Shown piece by piece: positions 1,291 to 33,199 of a stretch of DNA of 64,000 bases. The stretch lies in the NCBI GenBank assembly GCA_003194525.1, contig NBIV01000257.1:1-64000 (forward strand), read 5' to 3'. Position 1 is the stretch's first letter. Each line of letters starts with the position of its first letter. The translations under genes were made by a program, and so were the position numbers. The notes below the pieces were generated by a model. The model made no database searches, was not told the DNA's origin, and saw only the letters and a program-made list of their open reading frames with translations. Source of the DNA: Gracilariopsis chorda. Its lineage: Eukaryota; Rhodophyta; Florideophyceae; Gracilariales; Gracilariaceae.

Positions 1291-1479
1291 TGGTCCAGTT
1301 TCCTGGTTCTTCTTTCCCTGGCCTATGCCAGTTAGTGTAGTGTAGTATTGTGGGGAGCTAGCTGCTCCCTTGAATAAACTTCCCGTTTAGAACGGTGCTT
1401 CTCGGTTGAGTTCCCCGTCTTCGACGGACTTTGCCTTGTTATCCTTTCCTTTCGCTCCCCGCTCGCGCGGCAAAGTTAC

Positions 1480-3094: not shown

Positions 3095-6000
3095 CTACCT
3101 CTGACGAGGGAGGAGGGCAAGGACAACACGATCACGGGAAATCCGTTCGTGCGTGTCCCCCATCTCTACCACGACAGTGTCGGTGTTAACAGAGATGACC
3201 TTGAAGGGTCCATCCGCCACAGGCGAGAGTTTGTGACGCTTCTCCCGTTCCGGGTTGTAGTACTCCTTCCTGATGAAGACGTAGTTATTTGCCCGAATCG
3301 GGGACGGTTTCCCTCGCAAGCGAGCATCAAAATCCCGCTGGTAAGCGGCTTGGGCCCGTGCCATAGACTTCCGCGCAGCGGGCACCAGCTTGGAAAGCCA
3401 TTGCTTCCATTGCTGCCGGTAGATACCCACAGATGGGAAATTGTCCAAAGTAGCTTGGGGTTCCAGCGCCACAGGCGGGGGTGTTCTAGATAGAACTAAC
3501 TCGAATGGCGAAACTCCGGTAGTCCGGTGTACCTGCGTATTGTACGCGTAGGTTACCGCATCAGCGTAGAGATCCCAATTCGTTGGGTGGTCAGCGACGT
3601 AGGACCGTAACGCCGCGAGTAACGTCTGGTTAAGCCGTTCAACTTGCCCATTACACTGGGGATGGTAGGTAGTCGTGAACAAGTTCTTGACATCCAGGAT
3701 GCGACAAACATCCTGGAAGAACTTGCTCACGAACTGCTTCCCGTTGTCAGAGAGCACCTCTACAGGGGGACCGTAGACAAAAATCCAGTGCGTCACCGGA
3801 GCCTGGGCCACCGTGAGAGCGGTTATCCTCCGAAGAGGGACAGTCCGTACCAGCTTAGAAAAGCGGTCGGTAATGACAAGTAGAAACTTGTTTCCACGTT
3901 TCGTGGTGAGTAATGGTCCGAGAATATCGATCGCGATAAACTGGAGCGGCGCCCTTGCGGGGAATAGTTTCATCTTCTTCGCATTATTGCGGAGTTTGAC
4001 GCGATTCTTCGCGCATTCGCTACAAAACCGCACAGTTGCGTAGCAATCCACCGCCATTGCGGGCCAATAGAAATCCCTTCGCAGGGTTAGGTAGGGTTTC
4101 CTCCCACCTGGGTGACCTCCAATGGGGGCGTAGTGTGATAGATGTAACACCCGCGATTGCAGGGAATGTGGTACCACAATCTGTGGGCGGGCTTCGACCT
4201 TTCTTACGAGGTAGCCTTTGTCGTTTACCCCGAAAGGGAGATCTTCACCACCGTTGATACGGGCACGAATTCTCGTACAGAATGGGTCGCCGAATTGTTC
4301 TCGGATCATTTCTTCCGGTGATACCGGTACAAAGTTTCCCGGTAACGGGTTCTCAGATTTATCTCGCGATGCGAGTTGTTCGTCAAAATCAGCATCCTCG
4401 TCCCAGGTTTCTGGCCTAGCCTCGACGGCATATTCCGGATCATCCGGTTCTATAGCCATGAAGCATGGGACTTCATCATCCTCCGTTGGGAGTGCTTCCC
4501 CACTTGTGGGTAACCGCGATAAACCATCGGCCTGGGTGTTCTGCGCACCCTTTTTATGAATGACTTGAAAGTCATATTCCGCGAGGCGGAGTCTCCAGCG
4601 CATGAGGCGTCCCGACAGGTCGGAGATATTCATCAACCACCTCAATGAGGAATGATCCGTGTACACGGTGAAGTGAATTCCCATAAGGTAGGGGCGCAAA
4701 GTGGTCATCGCCCATACGACGGCGAGGCACTCTTTCTCCGATACGGAGTAGTTCCGCTCATGAACATTGAGCGAACGTGACCAATAAACATTTGGATGTC
4801 GTTCCCCCTCGGGGGTGGTTTGAAAAAGAGCACACCCGACTTGGTAGTCGCTCGAGTCCGTATCTACGGAGTATGGCAACCCAAGTTTTGGGAGATGTAG
4901 GATTGGTGCTGATGTGACAGCCTCCTTTAAGGAGTTAAAAGCTTCTGATTGCCCGGGCGTAAATGTTCCCAGTTTTGGGGGGTTCCCCTTTAGCAACAAC
5001 GCGTTCAGGGGCGCTGCAGTATCCGAAAAGTTCGGGATAAACCGTCGATAGACGTTGACCAGCCCCAGAAAGGAGCGCAGTTCCGTTTTAGTACGGGGTT
5101 CTTTCGCCTCAACGAGGGATTTGACTCGAGCTTTCTCGATCGCTAACCGTCCAGGACGGATAATGTGACCCAGATACTTCACAGTATCTGTGAAAAACTC
5201 ACATTTCCTCAACTTGAGGGTAATTCCCGCATCGCGGAGTACAGTGAGCACGTCTCGGACGTGAGTGAGATGGTCGTCCAACGAGTTGGAGAAGATGATA
5301 ATATCATCAAGGTAGACCAGACAACTCCGCCACTTAAAGCGGTTGAGTAGAATATCTACTGCACGCTGAAAGGTGGCGGGGGCGTTGGTTAACCCAAATG
5401 GCATCCGCTTGAAGCGGTACGTTCCTGCATGGCAGGTGAATGCGGTTTTGTCGCGATCCTCCTGTCTGACAGGTACTTGCCAATATCGCCAATTGGCATC
5501 AAGGGCCGTGAACACGGTGGCGTCTCCAAGGGAGTCAATGCACTCGTCCATACGAGGGATGGGGTACGTGTCCCTAACAGTCACGGCATTGAGCCGGCGG
5601 TAGTCGACACAGAACCTCCAGGTTCCGTCGGCCTTTAAAGCCAGTACAACTGGGGATGCCCAGGGTGATTGAGCGGGCTCAATCACACCTGCGCGGAGCA
5701 TCTTGTCCACTTGGGACTGCTCCTCTTCCCGAGCTTTCGGACCTGCCCTGTAAGGGGGTTGTGCAACCGGTCGCGCACCCGGGATTAAATCGATCCGGTG
5801 TTCCGTTGCATTAATCTCGTCAAGCGAGCCATCCCACATTGTGGTGAATTCCCGTAACATAGTACGGAGTTTGTCGCGGTGCGACTCTGGCACGTGGCTG
5901 AAGTCCAGTGCTTCAAGTGCTTTTACCGGATCAATCCTGTCATTGCTCGATGGAGCACTGTCCTGTGGAACAGGTGTGGTTCGCAATTCCGAGTTACTCG

Positions 6001-7030
6001 GTGTGTTCGACGCTGAAGTAGCGGTTTCCTCCCCCTCCTTAGACTTGACGTCTTCGGATGTCGGGGCGAACTCCCCAGAAGAGGTGGTAACTCCGAGTAC
6101 ATCGGCGGCTGTCATCTTCATTGGCAGCATTCCCATAGGATGGGGGGTTACACTCCCAATTACTTGGTATTTGACCAGGTGCTGGGGGTGTTTGCCAAGG
6201 TTGGCAACCAATATCCGGAAAGGGACATTCGGGGAAATGGAGACAATTACATTAGCCAGCGCCAGCTGGGATTTCTCGTACAACGAGGCGAGGGGTTGTA
6301 TAACCCGAAGACCGTGTTGACGGGAATTTACCTGCACCCAGACTTGGGACTCAGCCGGTATAGAAACCGAGGCAGCGACGCGGAGCTTGGTGGACTGGCG
6401 GGACGCGGCCGGTGGTTCCTGCGCAGCAGGGAGCGGAACTTGTTTCCGAGAGGACCGCTTTAGCGGGCGGCGAACAATCGGAACCGACGATCCGTCGTCA
6501 AGTTCTACACGCCTGAGGTGGGGCCTGATTGCGTCGACAAATTTGTCGCAGTAATCACATCCCAGTATGACTGGTGCTGCCAATGAACGGCAAACGATGA
6601 AGTCCAACTTCACCACCGAGGTACCAAGTCTCACGACGAGTTCCACTGTACCCACCGTTTGTAACGGATTGTTGTTCGCATCCGAAATGTCGGGGACCGC
6701 GTCAGAGCGGATACGCGACCGCACAAGCGGGGGTAACAATGATTCCACAACAAAGTTGGGGCCAGCACCTGTATCCAGGACGGTGAGAAACCTCACCATA
6801 AACTGGAGGTCAAGGCCAAGGTCGGCATAGACCCTATAATTGCGCTTGGCCAAGACCAAGACTCTACCGGGAATCCGGGGATTTTTACTCCGTATCCACG
6901 GGCGACGCAACACACCGAAGTGCGCAGAGTCCGCGTCAGCGGTGTCTTTCCTCGAGAGGACTTTCACCGGGGAGCGAGGCGAGGACGCCTCGGGCGCCAA
7001 CAGCCTCGTTCTTGAGGACACCTCTCCCAA
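3095..7030 (-). CDS. pol: Pol polyprotein of Ty3-type element A1 (PR-RT-RNH-IN), open frame of 1311 codons
   Basis: Copies the element's RNA into DNA and integrates it. Visible in order: retropepsin with VLDTGAG (about residues 84-90); reverse transcriptase with YLDD (573-576) and VDYRRLNA upstream; RNase H with VDTDSS and TDHSSLRWL; integrase with an HHCC finger (HYAPIGGH then CSEC) and a DDE core (IAIDILGP about 1033, LSDNGKQF about 1093, NGQVERLN about 1131). The frame has no ATG at its left edge: the listed start is a TTG, and the frame is open back into the end of gag in the -1 register, so it is probably made as Gag-Pol by frameshifting. The end is premature (1-nt indel relative to A2), removing the linker and chromodomain. 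All catalytic motifs look intact. Confidence 0.93.
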   Translation of the reverse strand: MGEVSSRTRLLAPEASSPRSPVKVLSRKDTADADSAHFGVLRRPWIRSKNPRIPGRVLVLAKRNYRVYADLGLDLQFMVRFLTVLDTGAGPNFVVESLLPPLVRSRIRSDAVPDISDANNNPLQTVGTVELVVRLGTSVVKLDFIVCRSLAAPVILGCDYCDKFVDAIRPHLRRVELDDGSSVPIVRRPLKRSSRKQVPLPAAQEPPAASRQSTKLRVAASVSIPAESQVWVQVNSRQHGLRVIQPLASLYEKSQLALANVIVSISPNVPFRILVANLGKHPQHLVKYQVIGSVTPHPMGMLPMKMTAADVLGVTTSSGEFAPTSEDVKSKEGEETATSASNTPSNSELRTTPVPQDSAPSSNDRIDPVKALEALDFSHVPESHRDKLRTMLREFTTMWDGSLDEINATEHRIDLIPGARPVAQPPYRAGPKAREEEQSQVDKMLRAGVIEPAQSPWASPVVLALKADGTWRFCVDYRRLNAVTVRDTYPIPRMDECIDSLGDATVFTALDANWRYWQVPVRQEDRDKTAFTCHAGTYRFKRMPFGLTNAPATFQRAVDILLNRFKWRSCLVYLDDIIIFSNSLDDHLTHVRDVLTVLRDAGITLKLRKCEFFTDTVKYLGHIIRPGRLAIEKARVKSLVEAKEPRTKTELRSFLGLVNVYRRFIPNFSDTAAPLNALLLKGNPPKLGTFTPGQSEAFNSLKEAVTSAPILHLPKLGLPYSVDTDSSDYQVGCALFQTTPEGERHPNVYWSRSLNVHERNYSVSEKECLAVVWAMTTLRPYLMGIHFTVYTDHSSLRWLMNISDLSGRLMRWRLRLAEYDFQVIHKKGAQNTQADGLSRLPTSGEALPTEDDEVPCFMAIEPDDPEYAVEARPETWDEDADFDEQLASRDKSENPLPGNFVPVSPEEMIREQFGDPFCTRIRARINGGEDLPFGVNDKGYLVRKVEARPQIVVPHSLQSRVLHLSHYAPIGGHPGGRKPYLTLRRDFYWPAMAVDCYATVRFCSECAKNRVKLRNNAKKMKLFPARAPLQFIAIDILGPLLTTKRGNKFLLVITDRFSKLVRTVPLRRITALTVAQAPVTHWIFVYGPPVEVLSDNGKQFVSKFFQDVCRILDVKNLFTTTYHPQCNGQVERLNQTLLAALRSYVADHPTNWDLYADAVTYAYNTQVHRTTGVSPFELVLSRTPPPVALEPQATLDNFPSVGIYRQQWKQWLSKLVPAARKSMARAQAAYQRDFDARLRGKPSPIRANNYVFIRKEYYNPEREKRHKLSPVADGPFKVISVNTDTVVVEMGDTHERISRDRVVLALLPRQR

Positions 7031-7060
7031 AGGGGAGACTCCCTCAGTTAGTTTTCCGCC
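7023..7060 (-). promoter_or_regulatory. Candidate -1 frameshift region between gag and pol (A1)
   Basis: The gag stop codon TAA (7048-7050) is directly preceded by GGAAAAC and followed by a 6-bp stem, TCTCCC-CTTT-GGGAGA, at 7023-7038. Pol continues in the -1 frame. The arrangement is base-for-base the same in A2. The upstream heptamer is not a classical slippery site, so the mechanism is inference. Confidence 0.45.
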
Positions 7061-9222
7061 TTCGGCGGTGGGTTGGTTTCCTCGACAACGAGTGCTTCAT
7101 CCCGTTGACGGGGGTTTCTATCCGCATAAGCGGGGGTTGCAACGGATGGTTGCGTGATCTCCCGAATCGGGGTGTATGAAGCTTGCCGCGCACGCGGGGT
7201 CTGTGGTAGGGCGTGGGAAAAGTCCGTTTTAGCACGGAGGTAGGAAGCCGTCGGGACGGAACGTTTCTCCTCTGGAGTGAGGGCCTCATAATTTCCCACC
7301 ACCTTGGCCATATCCTTCAGTGAACAAATACACTGAGGGGAGGTATGGCCATGGGCATAGCACAGGTGGCAAATGAGAGCCACTACCGCGACACGCGGGT
7401 TATTATTCCGAGTATCGGAGAAGCGAACCGCAGGGCGGGTTTCAGTCCATCCAGGCCGTTGATAACGGGATTGACCGTTTGAAAACGGGAGTCGTTGGGG
7501 TTGAACCCGACTGTTACCACCGTATAGAACGAAATCTTCTGTTCCCGTATCATGGGTCATCTCCGTCGTTGACGGCAAATCACTGGTGGGTATCGACACA
7601 CCATCCCCCTGCACTAAATGCACGGTATCAAATCCCTGTCCAGGGTTCCCATCCGCGGTGAGCGGGAGAGAGGAAGCTTCGCTTTCCAGCAACAACGCCT
7701 TGGCGGATTTAGACCGATTGTTCGGAGTTCTTGCACGAAGTGCATCCCCTTCCGCTCGGGCGTGTTGAACCAGCTCGAGGTAGGTGATCCTCCGCTTGTC
7801 CTTACGATAACGGGTAACTGAACTCCGGATTGCCGGGTCAAGACCATCGATGAACATGGTACTGCGCTCCCCAGCGGGGTATACGTTACCACATCTGTGG
7901 AAAGCCTTGTTAAGGCGCACCGAGTAATCGGTCTCGGTATCTCCAGCACGCTGGCGTGTATCTCGCAAAGCGAGGATAGCCTGCTTAATAGCGGTGTTGG
8001 TGGCGTAGGAGCGCAGAAGATACTGCACAGCCTCCGGCCAGCAAGTAACTCCTCCCTCGGAGGCGCGAGAAGATCCTCTGACAGAGGTGTATTGGTCCTC
8101 CGCCACTCCCCGTAAGAAATACGGTAAAGCCAAATAGGCTTGTCCCTCATTCATGCCGAGGATATCGGCCTCCGCTACAAAGCGGGATAGGAAATCCAGT
8201 ACTAGGACTGGGTCCTCTCCAGTAAAATACTGGTTGCGGAGCGAGAGCTGCATTCGCTTAATGCATTCTCGCACCTTTCCCGTACCACGGGGCGTACGTC
8301 CAAGTGACGAATCTTCGAGCCGGTAGTACCGGTATGATAAAAGCTTCCGGTAATGCGGGTTTGTCGGTTTCAATTCCCGGAGACCGGGGTGTCTTCTCCC
8401 CTTCTGGCGGGTTCGGACCACACCTTCGGTGGCCGATGACCGCTTCGAGCGGGAGGAGTATCCTCGCTTCTCGTCCTCCGAGTCGGAGTCCGAGAAGATC
8501 GAGCTAACCGAATGGTTTCGGAATGATTCCGACGATGTCGAAGAATCGGAGTCCGAATATTTCCGGTGGTGTTTCCGTCGATGACGGCGTTTCTTCTTCC
8601 CAGCAAGCTGGTCGTTGTGCGATGCCTCGTTTACCGGATCACCCGGGGATGGTTTGTCCATGAGGACGAACTGCTCCAGCGTCTCCAGGCGGGCACCAAT
8701 CCGATCAAATCGGGCTTCAACTCCTTCGATGAAGGCGGCGGGTTGTCGCAAACTCTCCAACACGGAGTTGACGTCAGACCGTAAAATACGGAGTTCCTCG
8801 GCGACCTCCTTTACGGGGGTTGCCAAGACCTCGTCTCGGAGGGATTTTAGTTCCCCTACAAGGGTGTCATGGGCGGTCCACAGAGCGCGGACCTGGGATT
8901 CCAGGGAAGTCCCCTGGGGGGTGTTATCGCCCGTTCCACGGGGGCTTGAAGCCGCGACAGCGGGAGCAGGCCGGGGTGCCTGGGGCACTGCGGCAACAGC
9001 CGGAGTCGATGCTGCATTCCCCTGCGGGGGTGATAACGAGGGCAAAAGGAGGTTCCGGGGTTCCCGGTCGGGGGTATCATTCCGCGATGAAGCGGCGCCA
9101 GCACGGCTGGAACTTGTCCGTATAGGGATACGGGGTACGAACCGAACTTCGGAAGTGTCCGCGTTGTCGCGGGAGCGACTACGCGTAACCACTGGCTCCG
9201 CGTCGGAGGGATTTCTCGACAT
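7048..9222 (-). CDS. gag: Gag polyprotein of Ty3-type element A1, 724 residues
   Basis: Structural protein that forms the retrotransposon particle and binds its RNA. The N-terminal third is disordered and rich in Arg, Ser and Pro. A helical stretch with EVAEELRILRSDVNSVLES follows, then a basic and Ser/Asp-rich block (KKKRRHRRKHHRK, SDSDSSTSSES). The capsid-like region lies around residues 300-480 (LSLRNQYFTGEDPVLVLDFL). One zinc knuckle near residue 619 has exact CX2CX4HX4C spacing (CHLCYAHGHTSPQC). ATG at 9222 is about 80 bases downstream of the primer-binding site. The frame is fully open, unlike the A2 copy, which has an in-frame stop. Confidence 0.93.
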   Translation of the reverse strand: MSRNPSDAEPVVTRSRSRDNADTSEVRFVPRIPIRTSSSRAGAASSRNDTPDREPRNLLLPSLSPPQGNAASTPAVAAVPQAPRPAPAVAASSPRGTGDNTPQGTSLESQVRALWTAHDTLVGELKSLRDEVLATPVKEVAEELRILRSDVNSVLESLRQPAAFIEGVEARFDRIGARLETLEQFVLMDKPSPGDPVNEASHNDQLAGKKKRRHRRKHHRKYSDSDSSTSSESFRNHSVSSIFSDSDSEDEKRGYSSRSKRSSATEGVVRTRQKGRRHPGLRELKPTNPHYRKLLSYRYYRLEDSSLGRTPRGTGKVRECIKRMQLSLRNQYFTGEDPVLVLDFLSRFVAEADILGMNEGQAYLALPYFLRGVAEDQYTSVRGSSRASEGGVTCWPEAVQYLLRSYATNTAIKQAILALRDTRQRAGDTETDYSVRLNKAFHRCGNVYPAGERSTMFIDGLDPAIRSSVTRYRKDKRRITYLELVQHARAEGDALRARTPNNRSKSAKALLLESEASSLPLTADGNPGQGFDTVHLVQGDGVSIPTSDLPSTTEMTHDTGTEDFVLYGGNSRVQPQRLPFSNGQSRYQRPGWTETRPAVRFSDTRNNNPRVAVVALICHLCYAHGHTSPQCICSLKDMAKVVGNYEALTPEEKRSVPTASYLRAKTDFSHALPQTPRARQASYTPIREITQPSVATPAYADRNPRQRDEALVVEETNPPPKAEN

Positions 9223-9302
9223 GAGAAAATACCGTTACGACGGGAAACGATCACGGAACTTCCAATAAATAAAAACAAACCTCGTAAGAGGGAAAACAAA
9301 AA

Positions 9303-9324
9303 CCGATTCTAGGTCGGGAGACCA
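9303..9324 (-). promoter_or_regulatory. Primer-binding site of element A1
   Basis: Read on the minus strand it begins TGGTCTCCCGACC three bases after the 5' LTR. Its complement ends in CCA preceded by a plausible tRNA T-arm and acceptor strand. The tRNA species is not identified. Confidence 0.6.
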
Positions 9325-9327
9325 CTT

Positions 9328-10134
9328 TTTGGTGCAATGCCCCAAAGGGGAAAAACACCGAAAGACGTTCGGGATCTTCCTCTCACGAGGTGACCCCAGC
9401 TGGGTAGAGCCCTCCCAGAGGTGTCACGGCGAAGCCGGTTTGTAAGACCAGGGACACATGTCGCGACTCGCGCAGGGAGGTGAAGGCGAAGAATCGGTAT
9501 CCGCGTGAGCGGGGTGTGATCCTCAGTAGAGGTATGTTTCCACGTAAGTGGGGGCGTGTGAGCGGATGCGCACACGAGGGCCGCGGATAGCGGGAGGTGC
9601 TACCCTAAAAAGGGGAAGAAGGAAGGACGAAGTGGGTCGCGAGAGCGACGAGCAGATACGGCAATGCCGGTGGACAGGACTCCCTATACAGGGCGAAACA
9701 CCAATATGATTGGAACAATTATACTCCCAGTGACGGGTTTCTTTAGATGTGCAAGGGGGTTAGATGTCCCGTGGTTTACGGCGTTTCCCTCCAAGGAGGA
9801 GTAGAGTACACGCGCAAGCGGCAAAAACTAGAGCCAATTCCCCAGGTTGGGGTCCCTTGTTGGGAAAGGTTTACTGGTGCGACGGCAGTGCGCCGTCGCA
9901 CTAAGTACTAGCTTCCCAGAAATGGGTGTGAAAATAATAAATAATATTAGCTAAAATACTCCACATTTCGTGGCAACATCCACTACTGTGGCCAACCGCC
10001 AATTGACCCAAAACCGTTTCCCACGTGTCCATATCCACCATAGTGGGGCGTAGTTCATATACACACTACACAACCGATAATATCGGGAAATCGTCCAAGT
10101 ACCCAGAATCCCTCCTTGAGGGCGTTGCACTTCA
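9328..10134 (-). repeat. 5' LTR of element A1 (807 bp)
   Basis: On the minus strand it starts TGAAGTGCAACGCCC and ends ATTGCACCAAA, the final CACA having mutated to CAAA. It matches the A2 LTRs (20053-20859 and 30755-32478) and the solo LTR at 33703-34515. It is dense in 4-bp-stem mini-hairpins. It is inserted in an older LTR (10135-10368), and CTATC follows it. Confidence 0.92.
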
Positions 10135-20052: not shown

Positions 20053-20859
20053 TGAAGTGAAAAGCCCTCAGGGAGTGATTCTGGGTACTTGAACGCTTTC
20101 CCGATATTATCGGTTGTGTAGTGTGTATATGAACTACGCCCCACTATGGTGGATATGGACACGTTAGACACGGTTTTGGGTCAATTGGCGGTTGGCCACA
20201 GTAGTGGATGTTGCCACGAAATGTGGAGTATTTTAGCTAATATTATTTATTATTTTCACACCCATTTCTGGGAAGCTAGTACTTAGTGCGACGGCGCACT
20301 GCCGTCGCACCAGTAAACCTTCCCCAACAAAGGACCCCAACCTGGGGAATTGGCTCTAGTTGTTGCCGCTTGCGCGCGTACTCTACTCCTCCTTGGAGGG
20401 AAACGCCGTAAACCACGGGACATCTAACCCCCTTGCACATCTAAAGAAACCCCTCACTGGGAGTATAATTGTTCCAATCATATTGGTGTTTCGCCCTGTA
20501 TAGGGAGTCCTGTCCACCGGCATTGCCGTATCTGCTCGTCGCTCTCGCGACCCACTTCGTCCTTCCTTCTTCCCCTTTTTAGGGTAGCACCTCCCGCTAT
20601 CCGCGGCCCTCGTGTGCGCATCCGCTCACACGCCCCCACTTACGTGGAAACATACCTCTACTGAGGATCACACCCCGCTCACGCGGATACCGATTCTTCG
20701 CCTTCACCTCCCTGCGCGAGTCGCGACAGGTGTACCTGGTCTTACAAACCGGCTTCGCCGTGACACCTCTGGGAGGGCTCTACCCAACTGGGTTCACCTC
20801 GTGAGAGGAAGATCCCGAACGTCTTTCGGTGTTTTTCCCCTTTGGGGCATCGCACCACA
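20053..20859 (+). repeat. 5' LTR of element A2 (807 bp)
   Basis: Starts TGAAGTG and ends CGCACCACA. Carries about 20 perfect mini inverted repeats between 20474 and 20956 (LTR and leader), mostly CCNN-loop-NNGG. Examples with 4-bp stem and 4-nt loop: 20494-20505, 20655-20666, 20675-20686 and 20797-20808. Confidence 0.93.
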
Positions 20860-20862
20860 AAG

Positions 20863-20884
20863 TGGTCTCCCGACCTAGAATCGG
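20863..20884 (+). promoter_or_regulatory. Primer-binding site of element A2
   Basis: TGGTCTCCCGACC begins three bases after the LTR, as in A1. The complement ends in CCA. Confidence 0.6.
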
Positions 20885-20964
20885 TTTTTGTTTTCCCTCT
20901 TACGAGGTTTGTTTTTATTTACCGGAAGTTCCGTGATCGTTTCCCGTCGTAACGGTATTTTCTC

Positions 20965-23139
20965 ATGTCGAGAAATCCCTCCGACGCGGAGCCAGTGGTT
21001 ACGCGTAGTCGCTCCCGCGACAACGCGGACACTTCCGAAGTTCGGTTAGTACCCCGTATCCCTAAACGGACAAGTTCCAGCCGTGCTGGCGCCGCTTCAT
21101 CGCGGAATGATACCCCCGACCGGGAACCCCGGAACGTCCTTTTGCCCTCGTTATCACCCCCGCAGGGGAATGCAGCATCGACTCCGGCTGTTGCCGCAGT
21201 GCCCCAGGCACCCCGGCCTGCTCCCGCTGTCGCGGCTTCAAGCCCCCGTGGAACGGGCGATAACACCCCCCAGGGGACTTCCCTGGAATCCCAGGTCCGC
21301 GCTCTGTGGACCGCCCATGACACCCTTGTAGGGGAACTAAAATCCCTCCGAGAGGAGGTCTTGGCAACCCCCGTAAAAAAGGTCGCCGAGGAACTCCGTA
21401 TTTTACGGTCTGACGTCAACTCCGTGTTGGAGAGTTTGGGACAACCCGCCGCCTTCATCGAAGGAGTTGAAGCCCGATTTGATCGGATTGGTGCCCGCCT
21501 GGAGACGCTGGAGCAGTTCGTCCTCATGGACAAACCATCCCCGGGTGATCCGGTAAACGAGGTATCACACAACGACCAGCTTGCTGGGAAGAAGAAACGC
21601 CGTCATCGACGGAAACACCACCGGAAATATTCGGACTCCGATTCTTCGACATCGTCGGAATCATCCCGAAACCATTCGGTTAGCTCGAGCTCCTCGGACT
21701 CCGACTCGGAGGACGAGAAGCGAGGCTACTCCTCCCGCTCGAAGCGGTCATCGGCCACCGAAGGTGTGGTCCGAACCCGCCAGAAGGGGAGAAGACACCC
21801 CGGTCTCCGGGAATTGAAACAGATAAACCCGCATTACCGGAAGCTTTTATCATACCGGTACTACCGGCTCGAAGATTCGTCACTTGGACATACGCCCCGT
21901 GGTACGGGAAAGGTGCGAGAATGCATTAAGCGAATGCAGCTCTCGCTCCGCAACCAGTATTTTACTAGAGAGGACCCAGTCCTAGTACTGGATTTCCTAT
22001 CCCGCTTTGTAGCGGAGGCCGATATCCTCGGTATGAATGAGGGACAAGCTTATTTGGCTTTACCGTATTTCTTACGGGGAGTGGCGGAGGACCAATACAC
22101 CTCTGTCAGAGGATCTTCTCGCGCCTCCGAGGGAGGAGTTACTTGCTGGCCGGAGGCTGTGCAGTATCTTCTGCGCTCCTACGCCACCAACACCGCTATT
22201 CAGCAGGCTATCCTCGCTTTGCGAGATACACGCCAGCGTGCTGGAGATACCGAGACCGATTACTCGGTGCGCCTTAACAAGGCTTTCCACAGATGTGGTA
22301 ACGTATACCCCGCTGGGGAGCGCAGTACCATGTTCATCGATGGTCTTGACCCGGCAATCCGGAGTTTAGTTACCCGTTATCGGGAGGAAAAGCGGAGGAT
22401 CACCTACCTCGAGCTGGTTCAACACGCCCGAGCGGAAGGGGATGCACTTCGTGCAAGAACTCCGAACAATCGGTCTAAATCCGCCAAGGCGTTGTTGCTG
22501 GAAAGCGAAGCTTCCTCTCTCCTGCTCACCGCGGATGGGAACCCTGGACAGGGATTTGATACCGTGCATTTAGTGCAGGGGGATGGTGTGTCGATAACCA
22601 CCAGTGATTTGCCGTCAACGACGGAGATGACCCATGATACGGGAACAGAAGATCCCGTTCTATACGGTGGTAACAGTCGGGTTCAACCCCAACGACTCCC
22701 GTTTTCAAACGGTCAATCCCGTTATCAACGGCCTGGATAGACTGACACCCGCCCTGCGGTTCGCTTCTCCGATACTCGGAATAATAATCCGCTTGTCGCG
22801 GTGCTGGCTCTCATTTGCCACCTGTGCTATGCCCATGGCCATACCTCTCCTCAGTGTATTTGTTCACTGAAGGATATGGCCAAGGTGGTGGCAAATTATG
22901 AGGCCCTCACTCCAGAGGAGAAACGTTCCGTCCCGACGGCTTCCTACCTCCGTGCTAAAACGGCCTTTTTACACGCCCTACCACAGACCCCGCGTGCGCG
23001 GCAAGCTTCATACACCCCGATTCGGGAGATCACGCAACCATCCGTTGCAACCCCCGCTTATGCGGATAGAAACCCCCGTCAACGGGATGAAGCACTCGTG
23101 GTCGAGGAAACCAACCAACCGCCGAAGGCGGAAAACTAA
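20965..23139 (+). pseudogene. gag: Gag of element A2, interrupted by one in-frame stop
   Basis: Near-identical to the 724-residue gag of A1 (7048-9222). A Trp codon is replaced by TAG at 22738-22740 after residue 591, upstream of the CX2CX4HX4C zinc knuckle (CHLCYAHGHTSPQC), which stays in frame from 22801. A truncated product would lack the RNA-binding knuckle. The stop at 23137-23139 is followed by the same hairpin as in A1. Confidence 0.9.
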
Positions 23140-23164
23140 CTGAGGGAGTCTCCCCTTTGGGAGA
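23131..23164 (+). promoter_or_regulatory. Candidate -1 frameshift region between gag and pol (A2)
   Basis: GGAAAAC, TAA and a TCTCCC-CTTT-GGGAGA stem (23149-23164) occur in that order. The pol frame is open from 23091, overlapping the gag end by 49 bases in the -1 register, and has no ATG near its start. Confidence 0.45.
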
Positions 23165-26100
23165 GGCGTCCTCAAGAACGAGGCTGTTGGCGCCCGAGGC
23201 GTCCTCGCCTCGCTCCCCGGTGAAAGTCCTCTCGAGGAAAGACACCGCTGACGCGGACTCTGCGCACCCCGGTGTGTTGCGTCGCCCGTGGATACGGAGT
23301 AAAAATCCCCGGATTCCCGGTAGAGTCTTGGTCTTGGCCAAACGCAATTATAAGGTCTATGCCGACCTTGGCCTTGACCCCCAGTTTATGGTGAGGTTTC
23401 TCACCGTCTTGGATACAGGTGCTGGCCCCAACTTTGTTGTGGAATCATTGTTACCCCCGCTTGTGCGGTCACGTATCCGCTTTGACGTGGTCCCCTACAT
23501 TTCGGATGCGAACAACAATCCGTTACAAACGGTGGGCACAGTGGACCTCGTCGTGAGACTTGGTACCTCGGTGGTGAAGTTGGACTTCATCGTTTGCCGT
23601 TCATTGGCAGCACCAGTCATACTGGGATGTGATTACTGCGACAAATTTGTCGACGCAATCAGGCCCCGCCTCAGGCGTGTAGAACTTGACGACGGATCGT
23701 GGGTTCCGATTGTTCGCTGCCCGCTAAAGCGGTCCTCTCGGAAACAAGTTCCGCTCCCTGCTGCGCAGGAACCACTGCCCGCCTCCCGCGCGTCCACCAA
23801 GCTCCGCGTCGCTGCCTTGGTTTCTATACCGGCTGAGTCCCAAGTCTGGGTGCAGGTAAATTCCCGTCAACACGGTCTTCGGGTTATACAACCCCTCGCC
23901 TCGTTGTACGAGAAATCCCAGCTGGCGCTGGCTAATGGAATTGTCTCCATTTCCCCGGATGTCCCTTTCCGGATATTGGTTGCCAAACTTGGCAAACACC
24001 CCCAGTATCTGGTCAAACACCAAGTAATTGGGAGTGTAACCCCCCATCCTATGGGAATGCTGCCAACAAAGATGACAGCCGCCGATGTACTCGGAGTTAC
24101 CACCTCTTCTGAGGAGTTCGCCCCGCCGTCCGAAGACGTCAAGTCTAAGGAGGGGGAGGAAACCGCTACTTCAGCGCCAAACATACCGAGTAACTCGGAA
24201 TTGCGAACCACACCTGTTCCACAGGACAATGCTCCATCGAGCAACGCCCGGATTGATCCGGAAAGGGCACTTGAAGCACTGGAATTCAGCCACGTGCCAG
24301 AGTCGCACCGCGACGAACTCCGTACCATGTTACGGGAATTCACCACAATGTGGGATGGCTCGCTTGGCGAGATTAATGCAGCGGAACACCGTATCGATTT
24401 AGTCCCCGGTGCGCGACCGGTTGCACAACCTCCTTACAGGGCAGGTCCGAAAGCTCGGGAAGAGGAGCAGTCCCCAGTGGACAAGATGCTCCGCGCAGGT
24501 GTGATTGAGCCCGCTCAATATCCCTGGGCATCCCCAGTTGTACTGGCTTTAAAGGCCGACGGAACCTGGAGGTTCTGTGTCGACTACCGCCGGCTCAATG
24601 CCGTGACTGTTAGGGACACGTACCCCATCCCTCGTATGGACGAGTGCATTGACTCCCTTGGAGACGCCACCGTGTTCACGGCCCTTGATGCCAATTGGCG
24701 ATATTGGCAAGTACCTGTCAGACAGGAGGATCGCGACAAAACCGCATTCACCTGCCATGCAGGAACGTACCGCTTCAAGCGGATGCCATTTGGGTTTACC
24801 AACGCCCCCGCCACCTTTCAGCGTGCAGTAGATATTCTACTCAACCGCTTTAAGTGGCGGAGTTGTCTGGTCTACCTTGATGATATTATCATCTTCTCCA
24901 ACTCGTTGGACGACCATCTCACTCACGTCCGAGACGTGCTCACCTTACTCCGCGATGCGGGAATTACCCTCAAGTTGAGGAAATGTGAGTTTTTCACAGA
25001 TACTGTGAAATATCTGGGTCACATTATCCGTCCTGGACGGTTAGCGATCGAGAAAGCTCGAGTCAAATCCCTTGTTGAGGCGAAAGAACCCCGTACTCAA
25101 ACGGAACTGCGCTCCTTTCTGGGGCTGGTCAACGTCTATCGACGGTTTATCCCGAACTTTTCGGATACTGCAGCGCCCCTGAACGCGTTGTTGCTAAAGG
25201 GGAACCCCCCAAAACTGGGAACATTTACGCCCGAGCAATCGGAAGCTTTTAACTCCTTAAAGGAGGCTGTCATATCAGCACCAATCCTACATCTCCCAAA
25301 ACTTGGGTTGCCATACTCCGTAGATACGGACTCGAGCGACTACCAAGTCGGGTGTGCTCTTTTTCAAACTACCCCGAGGGGGAACGACATCCAATTGGTT
25401 ATTGGTCACGTTCGCTCAATGTTCATGAGCGGAACTACTCCGTATCGGAGAAAGATTGCCTTGCCGTCGTATGGGCGATGACCACTCTGCGCCCCTACCT
25501 TATGGGAATTCACTTCACCGTGTACACGGACCATTCCTCATTGAGGTGGTTGATGAATATCTCCGACCCGTCGGGACGCCTCATGCGCTGGAGACTTCGC
25601 CTCGCGGAATATGACTCTCAAGTCATTTATAAAAAGGGTGCGCAGAACACCTAGGCCGACGCTTTGTCGCGGTTACCCACAAGTGGGGAAGCACTCCCAA
25701 GGGAGGATGATGAAGTCCCATGCTTCATGGCTATAGACCCGGATGATCCGGAATATGCCGTCGAGGCTAGGCCAGAAACCTGGGACGAGGATGCTGATTT
25801 TGACGAACTACTCGCATCGCGAGATAAATCTGAGAACCCGTTACCGGGAAACTTTGTACCGGTATCACCGGAAGAAATGATCCGAGAACAATTCGGCGAC
25901 CCATTCTGTACGAGAATTCGTGCCCGTATCAACGGTGGTGAAGATCTCCCTTTCGGGGTAAACGACAAAGGCTACCTCGTAAGAAAGGTCGAAGCCCGCC
26001 CACAGATTGTGGTACCACATTCCCTGCAATCGCGGGTGTTACATCTATCACACTACGCCCCCATTGGAGGTCACCCAGGTGGGAGGAAACCCTACCTAAC

Positions 26101-28719
26101 CCTGCGAAGGGATTTCTAATGGCCCGCAATGGCGGTGGATTGCTACGCAACTGTGCGGTTTTGTAGCGAATGCGCGAAGAATCGTGTCAAACTCCGCAAA
26201 AATGCGAAGAAGATGAAACTATTCCCGGCAAGGGCGCCGCTCGAGTTTATCGCGATCGATATTCTCGGACCATTACTCACCACGAAACGTGGAAACAATT
26301 TTCTACTTGTCATTACCGACCGCTTTTCTAAGCTGGTACGGACTGTCCCTCTTCGGAGGATAACCGCTCTCACGGTGGCCCAGGCTCTGGTGACGCACTG
26401 GATTTTTGTCTACGGTCCCCCTGTAGAGGTGCTCTCTGACAACGGGAAGCAGTTCGTGAGCAAGTTCTTCCAGGATGTTTGTCGCATCCTGGATGTCAAG
26501 AACTTGTTCACGACTACCTACCACCCCCCCAGTGTAATGGGCAAGTTGAACGGTTTAACCGGACGTTACTCGCGGCGTTACGTTCCTACGTCGCTGACCA
26601 CCCAACGAATTGGGATCTCTACGCTGATGCGGTAACCTACGCGTACAATACGCAGGTACACCGGACTACCGGAGTTTCGCCATTCGAGTTAGTTCTATCT
26701 AGAACACCCCCGCCTGTGGCGCTGGAACCCCAAGCTACCTTGGACAATTTCCCATATGTGGGTATCTACCGGCAGCAATGGAAGCAATGGCTTTCCAAGC
26801 TGGTCCCCGCTGCGCGGAAGTCTATGGCACGGGCCCAAGCCGCTTACAAGCGGGATTTTGACGCTCGCTTGCGAGGAAAACCGTCCCCGACTCGGGCAAA
26901 TAACTACGTCTTAATCAGGAAGGAATACTACAACCCGGAACGGGAGAAGCGTCACAAACTCTCGCCTGTGGCGGATGGACCCTTCAAGGTCATCTCTGTT
27001 AACACCGACACTGTCGTGGTAGAGATGGGGGACACGCACGAACGGATTTCCCGTGATCGTGTTGTCCTTGCCCCTCCTCCCTCGTCAGGGGTAGTCTTGG
27101 ATCCAGGCAACCCCGTTTCTACGGACTCTGCAACACCGGAACAATCCGGGAGTACCAGACCTACGGTACTACCACACCTCAGCCGGGGACTCTCAGACCT
27201 ACCGACTCTGTCGGACTCACCGGCTCAGCCGGGTAATTCGGGCCCCTCAGCGCCCGCCCCTACCACGTCTGCCCCACTGGCGCGCATCTATACCCGCCAG
27301 GCGGGGAATGTTATCCCTTATCCCGCCGCTCCGTCTAAGGAGGGGGAGGAGAACACTCGTTTTCGAGGAACGATATCGCCGTCGCAACGGGAAACACACC
27401 GTAACATACGGAACACTGACCGTGGAGCACGGAGTATGTCACGCGACACTAATCCCCCGTTCCCGGGCAGTGCTGTGCAACAGGAAGCAGACGCGCAGGC
27501 CCCGCAAAAGCGGCAAATACACCGTTTGTCACGGGAAAACGAGAAGCCTCACTCCAATACCGCAGCAGCGGAAAGGCAATCGCCCAATGCCTCGAAGCCG
27601 CCGTTGGCGGAAGTCCCCGCGAAAGCGGTTCAATCAGGTCGATCAGACCCGCGCCCTGCGGAGAAGGGGCGCCCAGATATGCTGGCCTCATAGGGGAATA
27701 CCGACACCCCTCTTGGGGAAAAAGGCGGCCAAGCTGCAGTCGAACCTTTAAGCCCTGGCTCGCAAGCACCGGAAACGCCTCCCGTCGTGGACGGAATCAA
27801 AGCCCCCGCTACGGGGAATAATTTGCGCCAACCCCCGCATCGCTGCGGCGAAGAACCGAGGAACTCGGGAATAACGCGCGCCATCGCACGCTCGAAACCG
27901 GTCGTACCGGACGCTGCTCCTCCTCACGGAGATGGTGCACTGCGCTTAGCAGCAATTCCCCTGAAAAGGGTGTCATCGGCACCTGCCCGGCACCCCCCAG
28001 AGGGGAATTTTGACCAAAATACCGGTGTACCCGAGTTAGCCCCAGGCAACCCGTCAGTAGCCGGGGACACCACGGCATCGCCGGAACGTATGGTGCAAAG
28101 CGCTCGTGCGCCTGCCAGGGAGGCGGTTTGCCACCCCATCACCGTGTCGCACGGGACCCCCCAGGGGGTTGTGGAAATGCCGATCCCGCAGGAGCGGTCA
28201 TCTTCCCGCAAACTCGCGGTGCGTGAGCTCAACCGCGAAGGCGGAGCCCAAGTCCCCCGCCGACTGGCGGTTTGCCCAGCCTACCGTGAAGACGGGAACA
28301 ACGACACCCCTCTGGGGAACGACTTCCCAGTGAAAACCCTGACACCACACACCCTCTTGAGGGATATTTTCCCGCATGAGCAGCGGCCACTAGGACAGCG
28401 CACGGCAACGTTGGAGTTATCGCCGAACACCCTGCTAAGGGACATTATACCGCACCGCGGGCAACCCTCGCCAGGGATTACAACCACCACCCGGCACGGC
28501 CGGCAGGTCTACGAACGAGAGTTCGTAGTAGACCGACTCGTCGGACACACCTGGGACCAGGATGGTATTCTACAATACTGCGTCCGCTGGTACGGGTATG
28601 ACCCCAGTGGGGATACGTGGGAGCCAATCGAACACCTCCCACGGTCGCAGGTCCTGCGATACCACCGTCAAACGGGAACTGCAGCCCCAGCCACGCTGGT
28701 TAATGCCCAAGTTGGGTAA
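23157..28719 (+). pseudogene. pol: Pol of element A2 including linker and chromodomain, multiply broken
   Basis: Same domains as A1 pol, with VLDTGAG protease, YLDD reverse transcriptase, RNase H, HHCC/DDE integrase, and beyond these the full tail that A1 has lost by frameshift. The tail is a Pro/Thr/Arg-rich linker of several hundred residues and a C-terminal chromodomain (YEREFVVDRLVGHTWDQDG, then YCVRWYGY and DTWEPIEHL, about 28510-28675). Such chromodomains in other elements steer integration to modified histones; here that role is inferred. Five lesions listed under the element prevent a single product. The listed left edge is a TTG within the open frame, not a proven start. Confidence 0.9.
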
Positions 28720-28909: not shown

Positions 28910-30697
28910 TCACTCACCCCCATCGTCCGGGGCGTAACCCCCAGCAAGGCGGTAGGCCAACGCGTCCGCCATGATGGTGACATCCCCCGATATCTCGGCA
29001 GCGCTAAGACCGGCAGCCCGGAGGAAACGTGCGATGATTTCGTTTTCATTCGCCGTCACCCCGCTGGGGATAGAAGGTCCGGCACTTGCCGCCGAAGGGT
29101 CAGCAGCCGGCTCGGCCGGAGACACCCACTCTGGGAAATCTTCCGCACTAGCGCCGGTCTCCTCTACGTCCATCTCCCCGGGTTCTTCCGGTTCGTTATC
29201 GACCATTGGGTCATCCCCGCCGTATGCGCGGTAGTAGTCGTCGGAATCGACGTACCCCACCGGGTGGTCTTCCGGCACATGCCGGGGCGTATCGCGAAGC
29301 TCGCGCGCCTCCTCGGAGGAAATTTCCTGGAACTCCCAGGGGTCGAAGTAGATAAAATCCCCCGCAAGGGCGGTGTTTCTACCGAGTCCCGGACCACCGG
29401 TGTTACCGCTACCGCCATCCAGACGACCGCTTTGCTCCAGCGGGACCTCACTCCAGCTAACGCTGTCGATGTACCCAAGTAATTGGAGGACCTCTCCATT
29501 GTTGGCCTGGCCCCCAATGGGGATGCAAAGATGCAGGTTTCGGATCGCTGCCCGCACACGCGATTGAAGGAACCAGAGACGATACTGGTCGTACGCCTCG
29601 TTGAGGATATAAGCCGCACTGCGGGCCGCCCACTCCGTAACCACTACGGACCACAACCCCGACCAGGGATCCTGCATGAGCAGCGAACCGAGGTACGTAA
29701 GTACCGGCGGGAGTTCTATGTAGCACCCCCGGCAGGCTTCATGGAAGCGCCACCACTCGGGGAGTGCTACATACCGACCTAGTCGGTGAGGCGGCGCAAT
29801 CCGCTCTATCTCCACGTTCTGATACGGGATAAAATACCCGAATCGGGATCGCCAACGCCGCTCGTAGCGGATGAAGTTTTGGAGAAAGTTGGACCGGTAT
29901 TGCCGGGGAAGGTACCTGAACTCCGCCCGAATAATCGGTCGCTCCCAGCAAAGGGCCTCTTGCCGCGTTGCGGAGAAATTCCTCCAAGCGAGGGTCTCGA
30001 GGCGGAACAGGTTCTCGCCGTACCTAATCTCCCCGCGAGTGCGGAAGTAGCTAACGTCGAAGCCAAACTCCGGTGGGACCGGTACATCGAATGGAGCCCG
30101 GCTCTGCCGTTGATACGCCATGCGCGTCAACGCGGTCTGTGCCGCAGTGACGGTCTCGCCCGAGTTTCTTCGGAGGTGGTGACGCGGAATCGCAATCCGG
30201 TGACGCCAATCCCACGATGTGGTGACTGCTCTGGGCAGATCCCCCGGAAGGGTGTCTGAACCATCCGCATAAGCGGTGACCAATCCCTCATTGAGGACAG
30301 CGACCGGGTGAAACCGCGGAGCAAGGCGCAGGCGCGACGCGTGATTCCGATTCATTGGGTTGAGCCCCACCAGGGTGTTGTAGGTTGGCCAGTTGGACAC
30401 CGGAGTGGTTCCGAAGGACACCACCGAAGGTGGTAGTGCGAAGGGATGGTCGGCTGCAGCAGCCATACTCCCCGGTTGTATCGGATTTCGATCGCCCTGA
30501 GGCAGGAGAACTGACCGGAAACCGGTGGTGTATCGCCCGAGAAGTCTCGGAGGTTGGCTGTGGTTGTTGATATTGTTGTCGTCGTTCATTTTTCCCTTTT
30601 GGAGGGTGGCTGTTGTTGTCGTTTGTGTGCTTGATGACTCTGGTGCAGAGGGATTTACCAGAGAACCGGAGACAAAGCACGCGCTTTTATCACCCAT
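28910..30697 (-). CDS. Antisense accessory ORF of element A2, 595 residues, unknown function
   Basis: Intact frame on the strand opposite to gag-pol, between pol and the 3' LTR. It starts about 60 bp inside the 3' LTR and ends about 190 bp from the pol stop. The N-terminus is polar (Ser/Thr/Asn-rich). Residues 180-400 look globular, rich in aromatics and Arg (FRYLPRQYRSNFLQNFIRYE, WWRFHEACRG, LTYLGSLLMQDPWSGLW). The C-terminal third is acidic and disordered (DSDDYYRAYGGDDPMVDNEPEE) and ends in a short helical, Ala-rich segment. I recognise no family. Antisense ORFs in this position are known in some plant Ty3 elements, mostly unexplained. A1 carries a broken copy, so both copies had it. Confidence 0.7.
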   Translation of the reverse strand: MGDKSACFVSGSLVNPSAPESSSTQTTTTATLQKGKMNDDNNINNHSQPPRLLGRYTTGFRSVLLPQGDRNPIQPGSMAAAADHPFALPPSVVSFGTTPVSNWPTYNTLVGLNPMNRNHASRLRLAPRFHPVAVLNEGLVTAYADGSDTLPGDLPRAVTTSWDWRHRIAIPRHHLRRNSGETVTAAQTALTRMAYQRQSRAPFDVPVPPEFGFDVSYFRTRGEIRYGENLFRLETLAWRNFSATRQEALCWERPIIRAEFRYLPRQYRSNFLQNFIRYERRWRSRFGYFIPYQNVEIERIAPPHRLGRYVALPEWWRFHEACRGCYIELPPVLTYLGSLLMQDPWSGLWSVVVTEWAARSAAYILNEAYDQYRLWFLQSRVRAAIRNLHLCIPIGGQANNGEVLQLLGYIDSVSWSEVPLEQSGRLDGGSGNTGGPGLGRNTALAGDFIYFDPWEFQEISSEEARELRDTPRHVPEDHPVGYVDSDDYYRAYGGDDPMVDNEPEEPGEMDVEETGASAEDFPEWVSPAEPAADPSAASAGPSIPSGVTANENEIIARFLRAAGLSAAEISGDVTIMADALAYRLAGGYAPDDGGE

Positions 30698-30741
30698 TTT
30701 CGTCTGGGAATCCTCCGCGTCCGCGGTCGTTTTCCTGTCTT

Positions 30742-30751: not shown

Positions 30752-30754
30752 ATA

Positions 30755-30938
30755 TGAAGTGCAACGCCCTCAGGGAGGGATTCTGGGTACTTGAACGCTT
30801 TCCCGATATTATCGGTTGTGTAGTATGTATATGAACTACGCCCCACTATGGTGGATATGGACACGTGGGACATGGTTTTGGGTCAATTGGCGGTTGGCCA
30901 CAGTAGTGGATGTTGCCACGAAATGTGGAGTATTTTAG
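30755..30938 (+). repeat. 3' LTR of A2, first part
   Basis: Begins TGAAGTGCAACGCCC and matches the first 184 bases of the LTR up to TTTAG (30934-30938), where a solo LTR is inserted. Confidence 0.9.
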
Positions 30939-31850: not shown

Positions 31851-32478
31851 TTTAGCTAATATTATTTATTATTTTCACACCTATTTCTGGGAAGCTAGTA
31901 CTTAGTGCGACGGCGCACTGCCGTCGCACCAGTAAACCTTCCCCAACCAAGGACCCCAACCTGGGGAATTGGCTCTAGTTGTTGCCGCTTGCGCGCGTAC
32001 TCTACTCCTCCTTGGAGGGAAACGCCTTAAACCACGGGACATCTAACCCCCTTGCACATCTAAAGAAACCCCTCACTGGGAGTATAATTGTTCCAATCAT
32101 ATTGGTGTTTCGCCCTGTATAGGGAGTCCTGTCCACCGGCATTGCCGTATCTGCTCGTCGCTCTCGCGACCCACTTCGTCCTTCCTTCTTCCCCTTTTTA
32201 GGGTAGCACCTCCCGCTATCCGCGGCCCTCGTGTGCGCATCCGCTCACACGCCCCCACTTACGTGGAAACATACCTCTACTGAGGATCACACCCCGCTCA
32301 CGCGGATACCGATTCTTCGCCTTCACCTCCCTGCGCGAGTCGCGACAGGTGTCCCTGGTCTTACAAACCGGCTTCGCCGTGACACCTCTGGGAGGGCTCT
32401 ACCCAACTGGGTTCACCTCGTGAGAGGAAGATCCCGAACGTCTTTCGGTGTTTTTCCCCTTTGGGGCATTGCACCACA
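31851..32478 (+). repeat. 3' LTR of A2, second part
   Basis: Resumes at the duplicated TTTAG and ends TTGCACCACA at 32478. It is followed by GATAG, the inverted partner of the flank of A1. Confidence 0.9.
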
Positions 32479-33199
32479 GATAGTGGGAACTCCACGTGTA
32501 TGGACCTCGAGAGTTGGGCACCAAATTATTTAATTAGTTCAGTTTATTGTCGTGAAACCTACTTAGGTAATGGCGGCTCCGCCGTCAGCTTCACCAGTAA
32601 ATGGCAACCTTGGTTCTCGTTTGAGAAATACTCTTTGCAGAGGAAGGCTCTGGTACGATAGGCCATCGTAGGGATTACGAATCCTTGCGGAGAGTATCCA
32701 CGAGTGGATTCCGTCTACTATCCCCTTGGGAACACTCAGGCGTCACTACTATTACAGTATCACCGTGTTCGGTATTGCTATCTATTCCACTGTTAGTCTT
32801 GGACTCCGCCCGGTATCGGGTTCATTCTCGTGGTGTGTATTGCCACTCTCCTTTGGGAAACACGCATACCGCCTGTGTGGACTCGCTCCCGTCTCCGGGT
32901 CTGTTGCCGCTGTGTGCACGCCCCTTCGCCGGTTCACGTCGTGTTTCTCTTCCCTTTTAGGGCCCCCTTTCTCCTTTGCAGAATCCTCCGCTCAACACTC
33001 TCGTGTGATCCACTCCTAGAGACACACCCCATTTTCTGGGCCATTCCCGAACCTCTGCAGGTATAGCCAGAACCATTTTGGTCTTACACGCCAATTCGTA
33101 CGTGGCGCAGAGGGCTCACCACTGAGACAACATCCCCAAAGGGAGCGAGCTCTCGAACACCTTGAAGGTGCATCTCCCGTCACCGGGTTTTGCTCTACA
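32479..33199 (+). repeat. Second part of the split solo LTR (family D)
   Basis: Continues the LTR begun at 10135-10368, ends TTTTGCTCTACA at 33199 and is followed by the TTTAT duplication. Mini-hairpins are common. No coding sequence. Confidence 0.8.

Follow-up and report, generated by a model that had tools for sequence, protein, structure and literature searches.

Plant Ty3 chromoviruses with an antisense ORF carry a chromodomain, and their extra ORF follows pol and precedes the 3' LTR, as in the element described here; to our knowledge no hairpin tiling has been reported in them. The genome-scale ordered RNA structure (GORS) of RNA viruses is a heterogeneous structure without a unit length, a pitch or a fixed grammar. 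Like those of HBV, other dispersed packaging signals share a recognition motif. According to the accessible parts of the published accounts, each of the many short RNA sites or stem-loops found along the genomes of human parechovirus 1, MS2, STNV and HBV (core) is thought to contact the coat protein, and those of HBV share a sequence motif in the loop (PMC5431903, PMC6281560, PMC7612645, PMC4751978, PMC3593212). How LTR retrotransposons pick their own RNA among related RNAs is unsettled. In the accessible parts of the yeast Ty3 literature, the packaging sequences are called "not precisely defined", localisation and packaging are said to depend on POL as well, and hairpin tiling does not appear in the SHAPE data (PMC11381356); scattered packaging sites are thought likely (PMC4974528), and about 20 bases of RNA fall to each Gag (PMC6525542).

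The locus analysed here lies in a window of 64,000 nucleotides, i.e. the whole stretch of DNA that was analysed, from Gracilariopsis chorda. A first-pass annotation had described a retroelement saturated with tiny perfect inverted repeats and knew of no described element with this signature; in the open-access literature, judged from titles and the beginnings of abstracts, we likewise found no description of such a hairpin-tiled element.

Element A and its copies

The inverted repeats belong to a retrotransposon family, named here element A, which is present in the window as the copies A1 and A2 and as a solo LTR. The features are listed below together with their CC hairpins, defined as CC-xy...y'x'-GG with a span of 11-14 nt.

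~20053 to ~32480, forward strand: element A2, a Ty3-type LTR retrotransposon with LTRs, gag, pol, chromodomain ORF and antisense ORF
20053..20964, forward strand: 5' LTR and leader of A2, enclosing 20474-20956; 22 CC hairpins (24 per kb)
20965..22740, forward strand: gag ORF of A2, 591 aa; 45 CC hairpins
23157..27693, forward strand: pol of A2 with RT, RNase H and integrase, and a protease-like region assigned by position; frame broken
27787..28719, forward strand: chromodomain ORF of A2, separate from the integrase ORF in this copy; 31 CC hairpins
28910..30697, reverse strand: antisense ORF of A2, 595 aa, between the chromodomain ORF and the 3' LTR; 34 CC hairpins
30755..30938, forward strand: first part of the 3' LTR of A2, a direct repeat; 6 CC hairpins
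31851..32480, forward strand: second part of the 3' LTR of A2, lying beyond a 912-bp insertion (30939-31850) that interrupts the LTR
1..10134, reverse strand: second copy A1 of the same family, truncated by the contig start; 213 CC hairpins with similar spacing
7048-9222, reverse strand: gag ORF of A1, 724 aa
3095-7030, reverse strand: pol ORF of A1, 1311 aa
33691..34520, reverse strand: solo LTR of the A family, 88% identical; 18 CC hairpins

Positions 20053-20531 are a direct repeat of 30755-30938 plus 31851-32150 with 96-99% identity, which identifies them as LTRs. In the pol ORF of A1, RVT_1 (466-624), RT_RNaseH (718-819), Integrase_H2C2 (953-1010) and rve (1027-1124) follow each other in the Ty3 order, and the ORF 27787-28719 of A2 contains a chromodomain (PF00385, E=2.3e-10). 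By pol order, chromodomain and LTRs, element A is a Ty3/Gypsy LTR retrotransposon (chromovirus). The open frames are longer in A1 than in A2, and the gag of A1 contains, as judged by eye, a stretch resembling a CCHC zinc knuckle (C-HL-C-YAHG-H-TSPQ-C), which had no Pfam match; a comparison of Gag with the PDB sequences gave 0 matches. A search of the genome (91.3 Mb, 1081 contigs) with the RT of A returned at least 150 matches with 96-100% identity. The long host ORFs and one protein matching a phycobilisome domain at 28.1 bits would fit a red alga.

The antisense ORF had no Pfam match above the cut-off, and its structure prediction with a single-sequence model (mean pLDDT 32.6) was set aside. 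Its counterpart in A1 consists only of shorter frames of 142 and 146 aa. The 912-bp insertion in the 3' LTR of A2 has 11 CC hairpins of its own and a single 29-bp match to the A LTR, and the repeat units flanking it have 5 bp in common (20232-20236 of the 5' LTR), resembling a target-site duplication. Directly upstream of A2, apparent degenerate Ty3 remains with pieces of RT, RNase H and integrase were recognised by eye at 18110-19795, without the hairpin signature. In the host part of the window, a 53-bp unit is present in three tandem copies at 57895-58049. Tandem repeats were rejected as a source of the pattern, all 8 rows found being located at 40.4-59.1 kb, outside element A, and so was a known RNA family, the window having no Rfam match at the gathering threshold.

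Density, form and spacing of the hairpins

In the region 20474-20956, inverted repeats with a stem of at least 4 bp occupy 25 registers, with loops of 3, 4 and 5 nt in 9, 12 and 4 cases, and 21 repeats can be laid out without overlap, close to the about 20 counted by eye in the first-pass annotation. Its estimate of around ten repeats with exactly 4-nt loops, as opposed to about two by chance, was also borne out: 12 repeats of the 4-4-4 kind were found compared with 1.7 in dinucleotide shuffles and 1.9 in 2000 order-2 Markov simulations, and the highest sum over the three loop lengths in these simulations was 17. Perfect inverted repeats were confirmed at eight of the nine coordinates it gave as examples, and one (21333-21343) was misplaced, a 4-3-4 repeat being located at 21323-21333. 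Over 20474-28800, the counts for loops of 3, 4 and 5 nt at the same stem threshold are 140, 139 and 119 compared with 36.5, 36.8 and 35.7 in dinucleotide shuffles (z 18.7, 16.7 and 13.1), and in the host part at 35-64 kb 143, 133 and 122 compared with 118.5, 120.4 and 119.2 (z 2.0, 1.3 and 0.3). Only repeats with a total span of about 9-14 nt are in excess; from 15 nt upward the excess is gone.

CC hairpins occur in 234 registers, corresponding to 217 distinct hairpins, in the 10.7 kb of A2, and there are 9 in 29 kb of host DNA. In 200 order-3 Markov simulations of A2, the mean was 22.3 and the maximum 38. The background expectation derived from distant spans is 29.1 for A2 (10.7 kb) and 16.3 for the host (29 kb), the higher expectation in A being due to its greater richness in CC and GG, the one property that speaks for base composition. 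As an explanation, base composition, codon use or chance can be dismissed for practical purposes on the basis of the dinucleotide, order-2 and order-3 Markov, synonymous-codon and codon-permutation nulls. With 300 synonymous-codon shuffles for each of five ORFs (z 9.8-18.5), the CC hairpins number 45 vs. 5.1 (max 11) in gag, 40 vs. 6.3 (max 13) in the first pol ORF, 28 vs. 5.6 (max 13) in the C-part of the integrase, 31 vs. 5.4 (max 13) in the chromodomain ORF and 34 vs. 6.3 (max 13) in the antisense ORF, and hairpins are present in all three reading frames. The hairpin excess is independent of codon use and reading frame, and the earlier statement that the pattern coexists with coding holds for all five ORFs, with observed counts outside the range of the codon-matched shuffles.

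The claim that the pattern continues through gag, pol and the antisense ORF and is not restricted to the LTR proved correct and extends to the whole element and to A1. The density of CC hairpins per kb in A2 is 24 in the LTR, 25 in gag, 18 in PR, 17 in RT-RH, 17 in IN, 30 at 27.0-28.7 kb and 19 in the antisense ORF; outside A2, it is 22 in the solo LTR, 5.0 in the stretch that separates this LTR from A2 (32.5-33.7 kb), 1.3 upstream at 10.2-20.05 kb and 0.3 in the host. CC hairpins are absent from 18501-20000, dense from 20101 on and absent again from 34501-36000, i.e. the tiling is confined to the element and its outer edges are sharp.

The outer pairs are most often CC/GG, and the form CCNN...NNGG, which had been given for most repeats, is the commonest one, with 13 cases in 20474-20956 and a CC start in 332 of the 720 maximal hairpins over 20474-32480, compared with a GG start in 35. 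The pair flanking CC/GG on the outside is Watson-Crick in 5/85 cases with loop 4, 2/73 with loop 5 and 0/26 with loop 6, so that outward pairing is avoided at these loops (7/184) but not at loop 3 (12/50), and a fifth inner pair is present in 58 of the 73 "loop 5" cases. Therefore, the unit is a stem of 4-5 bp with a loop of 3-4 nt and mostly open flanks, summarised by the rule CC-xy(z)-loop of 3-4-(z')y'x'-GG. The inner pairs are fairly free, with stems of A/T-only pairs being poorly represented, and the loop letters are near-uniform without a consensus, i.e. the loops share no recognition motif. The enrichment of inner pairs follows stem stability with rho -0.47 (p=0.07) for RNA energies and rho -0.54 for DNA stacking energies; stability explains the enrichment only weakly and was rejected as the sole driver.

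The start-to-start distance of CC hairpins, one-base register shifts aside, is never below 15 nt, and the hairpins do not overlap. Compared with a hard-core random model, centre distances of 17-23 nt in A are frequent (56 pairs vs. 37.7) and those of 26-33 nt scarce (18 vs. 33.9), values that none of 2000 simulations reached; at larger distances the deviations lack significance (36-43 nt, 39 vs. 35.2; 45-53 nt, 31 vs. 39.4; 55-63 nt, 44 vs. 39.1). Maxima near 40 and 57 nt are seen in both A2 and A1, and maxima near 40 and 60 nt are reached in 25% and 19% of the hard-core simulations. Neighbouring hairpins in A thus favour a pitch of about 20 nt beyond hard-core exclusion. Among the other elements, L081 has a spacing peak at 20-24 nt, and the 20-nt peak is absent in F69, L080 and L063.

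Selection on the stems and change between families

Polymorphism was analysed in a 3.6-kb stretch of pol from 30 copies (L009-L038), which form two subfamilies of 12 and 18 copies that are 6-8% apart, and in a non-overlapping stretch of LTR and gag from eight copies, with columns containing more than 2 gaps excluded from both samples. Variants found in a single pol copy occur at 0.104 per site in stems, 0.100 in loops and 0.079 elsewhere, while variants shared by at least two copies of a subfamily are present at 3 of 569 stem sites, 12 of 300 loop sites and 94 of 2772 other sites. Counting shared variants together with fixed differences, stems differ from the outside with p=0.0003 and from loops with p=0.005; for fixed differences alone the values are p=0.04 and p=0.07. 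Within the CC/GG context the shared-variant contrast is not significant (12:23 vs. 50:65, p=0.43), as opposed to p=0.0006 in other contexts, so that part of the stem protection could belong to CC/GG as such. The sample of LTR and gag, in which single-copy rates are similar, has shared variants at 3 of 485 stem sites, 10 of 250 loop sites and 42 of 1668 other sites, the p values for stems being 0.051 against the outside and 0.007 against loops. If only the non-coding LTR is counted, they are found at 1/190 stem, 8/92 loop and 30/629 other sites (stem vs. outside p=0.03), and gag alone has no shared-variant contrast (2:13 vs. 12:54, p=1). When the samples are pooled, shared variants are about 5-7 fold rarer in stems (6/1054 sites) than outside (136/4440) or in loops (22/550), and the ratio of shared to single variants, which leaves out the fixed differences between the pol subfamilies, is 6:80 in stems compared with 136:301 outside (p=6e-7) and 22:39 in loops (p=1e-5). 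The stems are under purifying selection during element replication.

The two pol subfamilies have 64 of 71 hairpins in common, and 14 hairpins of the solo LTR lie in the same columns as hairpins among the 22 of the A2 LTR, at 88% identity. The gains and losses between the two subfamily reference copies fall in the 3' part of the pol stretch (columns ~2800-3600). Related Ty3 families with an RT 57-81% identical have hairpins of the same or altered types. In the codon-aligned pol of A, F66 (L066) and F69 (L069), with about 65-67% DNA and 70-73% protein identity, the hairpin places mostly differ, and hairpins in identical columns number 6/42, 5/42 and 6/29 compared with 0.5, 0.4 and 0.3 obtained by shifting. 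By a hand tally, compensatory changes, with one Watson-Crick pair swapped for another, are present in 7 of the 17 column-sharing pairings. With about 9-12 CC hairpins per kb in F69 and F66 and 19 in A, the positions largely turn over between related families and the excess of the same type persists.

To place these types, an RT tree was constructed by a quick method, with hairpin labels assigned by us from per-locus counts. The 44 loci were reduced to 35 rows; L078, L079 and L091 had no usable RT match, L056, L057, L059, L061 and L062 were left out by hand as near-identical or broken, and L051 was removed by a 120-residue filter. A clade of 19 rows contains three types: 11 rows have the CC type, L073 being the weakest; 2 rows have loops of 4-5 nt on any foot, loop 4 reaching 5.1x in L081; and 6 rows have a weak type with even loops, in which loop 2 reaches 2.1-2.2x. 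L063, with an RT 28.7% identical to that of A, has stems of 5-6 bp with 2-nt centres (stem 5 loop 2 = 8.6x), and since its RT sister L090 has no signature, this 5-2-5 type is most simply explained as a second, independent origin, which is probable from the sequences compared. In L063 (1-3001, open frame of 1606 aa), about 33 palindromes with arms of 5-7 bp and a 2-nt centre lie in 3 kb of coding sequence. The remaining 15 Ty3 rows have no clear signature, L058 among them having a weak excess (z 3.1). L055, labelled "none", has 17 CC hairpins at its positions 2210-3296, and L091 has an excess of CC feet (18). No clear signature was found in 12 Copia loci, with CC counts of 3, 0, 0, 0, 0, 0, 0, 0, 1, 0, 0 and 0. 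The Copia family L041-L050 has 0 or 1 CC hairpins per locus compared with about 3.5-5.3 expected from distant spans, which may indicate avoidance, but these loci look like near-copies. A host-wide property was ruled out by the host DNA at 35-64 kb together with these Copia loci and the 15 Ty3 rows labelled "none". Among 35 pattern matches in IMG/VR, 0 relatives were confirmed.

Candidate functions and comparison with known systems

The fixed hairpin, the favoured pitch, the redundancy, the turnover of positions with a kept excess and the change of grammar would be expected of a repeated protein unit that takes one hairpin each, for which Gag is the obvious candidate; the match between the pitch in A and the number of bases published per Ty3 Gag is suggestive, not proof. 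We consider there to be an even chance that the hairpins are sites spread along the element at which its own Gag/nucleocapsid binds, self-paired in the single strand and serving as a packaging or condensation signal. The sites would act as self-paired hairpins, most likely in the genomic RNA, and would be read by an element-encoded protein, most likely a Gag/nucleocapsid lattice in which each hairpin is taken by about one Gag; this would give the whole element a redundant "self" signal by which its RNA is condensed and selectively packaged amid many co-resident families, and the Gag of each family would co-evolve with its own hairpin grammar. Of the three readings offered by the first-pass annotation, RNA packaging or structure and a protein-binding motif fit best, given the fixed geometry, the mostly avoided outward pairing, the pitch, the purifying selection on stems and the family-specific types; the third, palindrome-making template switching by the RT, finds no support. 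A point against Gag reading the RNA is that the CC families show no preference for G-U over A-C, which is odd for a structure of sense-strand RNA. The weak dependence on stem stability, the missing shared-variant contrast within the CC/GG context of pol and in gag alone, and the lack of a 20-nt peak or of the flank asymmetry described below in several related families also count against it. In addition, nt 429-4979 of yeast Ty3 are dispensable for retrotransposition in trans, according to the accessible part of that study (PMC4974528), so that Ty3 Gag does not generally require dense internal sites.

The near-miss inner pairs bear on the strand of action. In the CC families, A-C occurs in 61 cases compared with 28.6 expected and G-T (G-U) in 34 compared with 24.7 (p=0.04 pooled), with the same lean in 6 of 6 sequences; a mutational strand bias behind it was rejected, as the single-copy counts of G>A (61) and C>T (51) are nearly even. 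In L063 the lean is reversed (A-C 12 vs. 22.9, G-T 33 vs. 28.0, p=0.016), and L081 has neither lean. Furthermore, an A follows GG in 10/22 hairpins of the LTR, 82/173 of the sense coding part and 17/34 of the antisense-ORF region of A, compared with a T before CC in 3, 22 and 5. This asymmetry is weaker for GG outside hairpins, keeps the orientation of the element even in the antisense-coding region and is absent in F66, F69 and L080. For A, the hairpins likely act in a strand-oriented single-stranded form, either RNA or cDNA. Instead of genomic RNA, the functional strand could be minus-strand cDNA in single-stranded form or antisense RNA, to which NC, integrase or some other protein would bind while reverse transcription proceeds. 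A-C corresponds to G-T/G-U on the complementary strand, the enrichment of inner pairs tracks the DNA stacking energies slightly better, and the loops of the L063 type have only 2 nt, a size better tolerated in hairpins of DNA than of RNA; however, the strand tests are all weak and of opposite sign in the two groups, and we regard this explanation as unlikely.

Another explanation is protection of the RNA against the host, for example by hairpins placing structure in every small-RNA target window of about 21 nt, without a dedicated binding protein. Small RNAs have a length near 20 nt, to which the pitch is close, and the local folding of A exceeds that of shuffles, with a mean z of -1.52 (se 0.19) over 53 sense windows of 200 nt, -1.49 on the other strand and -0.01 over 50 host windows, and with 20.9 short-range pairs per sense window compared with 14.0 in shuffles. 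However, such a shield predicts neither the CC/GG base nor the avoidance of longer stems nor family-specific types, and other Ty3 families and the sampled Copia loci of the same genome do without a clear signature, which makes it quite improbable. Dimerisation of the genomic RNA through intermolecular duplexes of the palindromes has a precedent in yeast Ty3, where a dimerisation sequence occupies the apical portion of a short hairpin, according to the accessible part of that work (PMC11381356). In A, the duplex would carry internal loops, because the 4-nt loops are self-complementary only at chance level (21/85), and hundreds of sites would not be needed for this purpose, so that we give dimerisation very little weight. 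Least credible among these is a mutational by-product of RT template switching or quasi-palindrome correction, which would account for perfect pairing with little wobble and for compensatory-looking changes between families, but stems receive single-copy variants about as often as the background does, and shared variants avoid them, and the specific stem base, outward-pair avoidance and exclusion spacing are not expected of an RT copying error.

Returning to Gag as the reader of the hairpins, the wider proposal is a whole-genome structural barcode at a pitch of about 20 nt that varies between sister families, was reinvented in a distant Ty3 group and may act as a self/non-self packaging code; to this we assign slightly less than an even chance. 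If true, it would let co-resident retrotransposon families package only themselves. The family variants make the question of which protein reads which hairpin directly testable, the tiling offers a sequence-only signature for spotting such elements in other genomes, and element A shows how strongly a structural code can overlie protein coding.

In comparison with the known systems, A resembles GORS in its excess folding along whole coding regions, as the folding energies show, but differs in that only spans of about 9-14 nt contribute to its excess. With yeast Ty3 it has the Ty3-type pol and the suggested length of RNA per Gag in common, but the cis-acting sequences of Ty3 are delimited at the RNA ends in the accessible part of the report (PMC4974528), unlike the full-length tiling of A. 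The nearest idea is that of dispersed packaging signals, with which A has in common a large number of similar, selected stem-loops along the genome. It is not classed with them, because a shared loop motif is absent and the binding of a coat protein is only predicted: the loop letters of A are free, and the stem foot and length are fixed. With about 20 sites per kb in an LTR retrotransposon and several family-specific geometries, known here from sequence alone, element A provides a dense, selected set of sites visible in the genome itself, with a favoured pitch that would correspond to one Gag and with natural variants across families.
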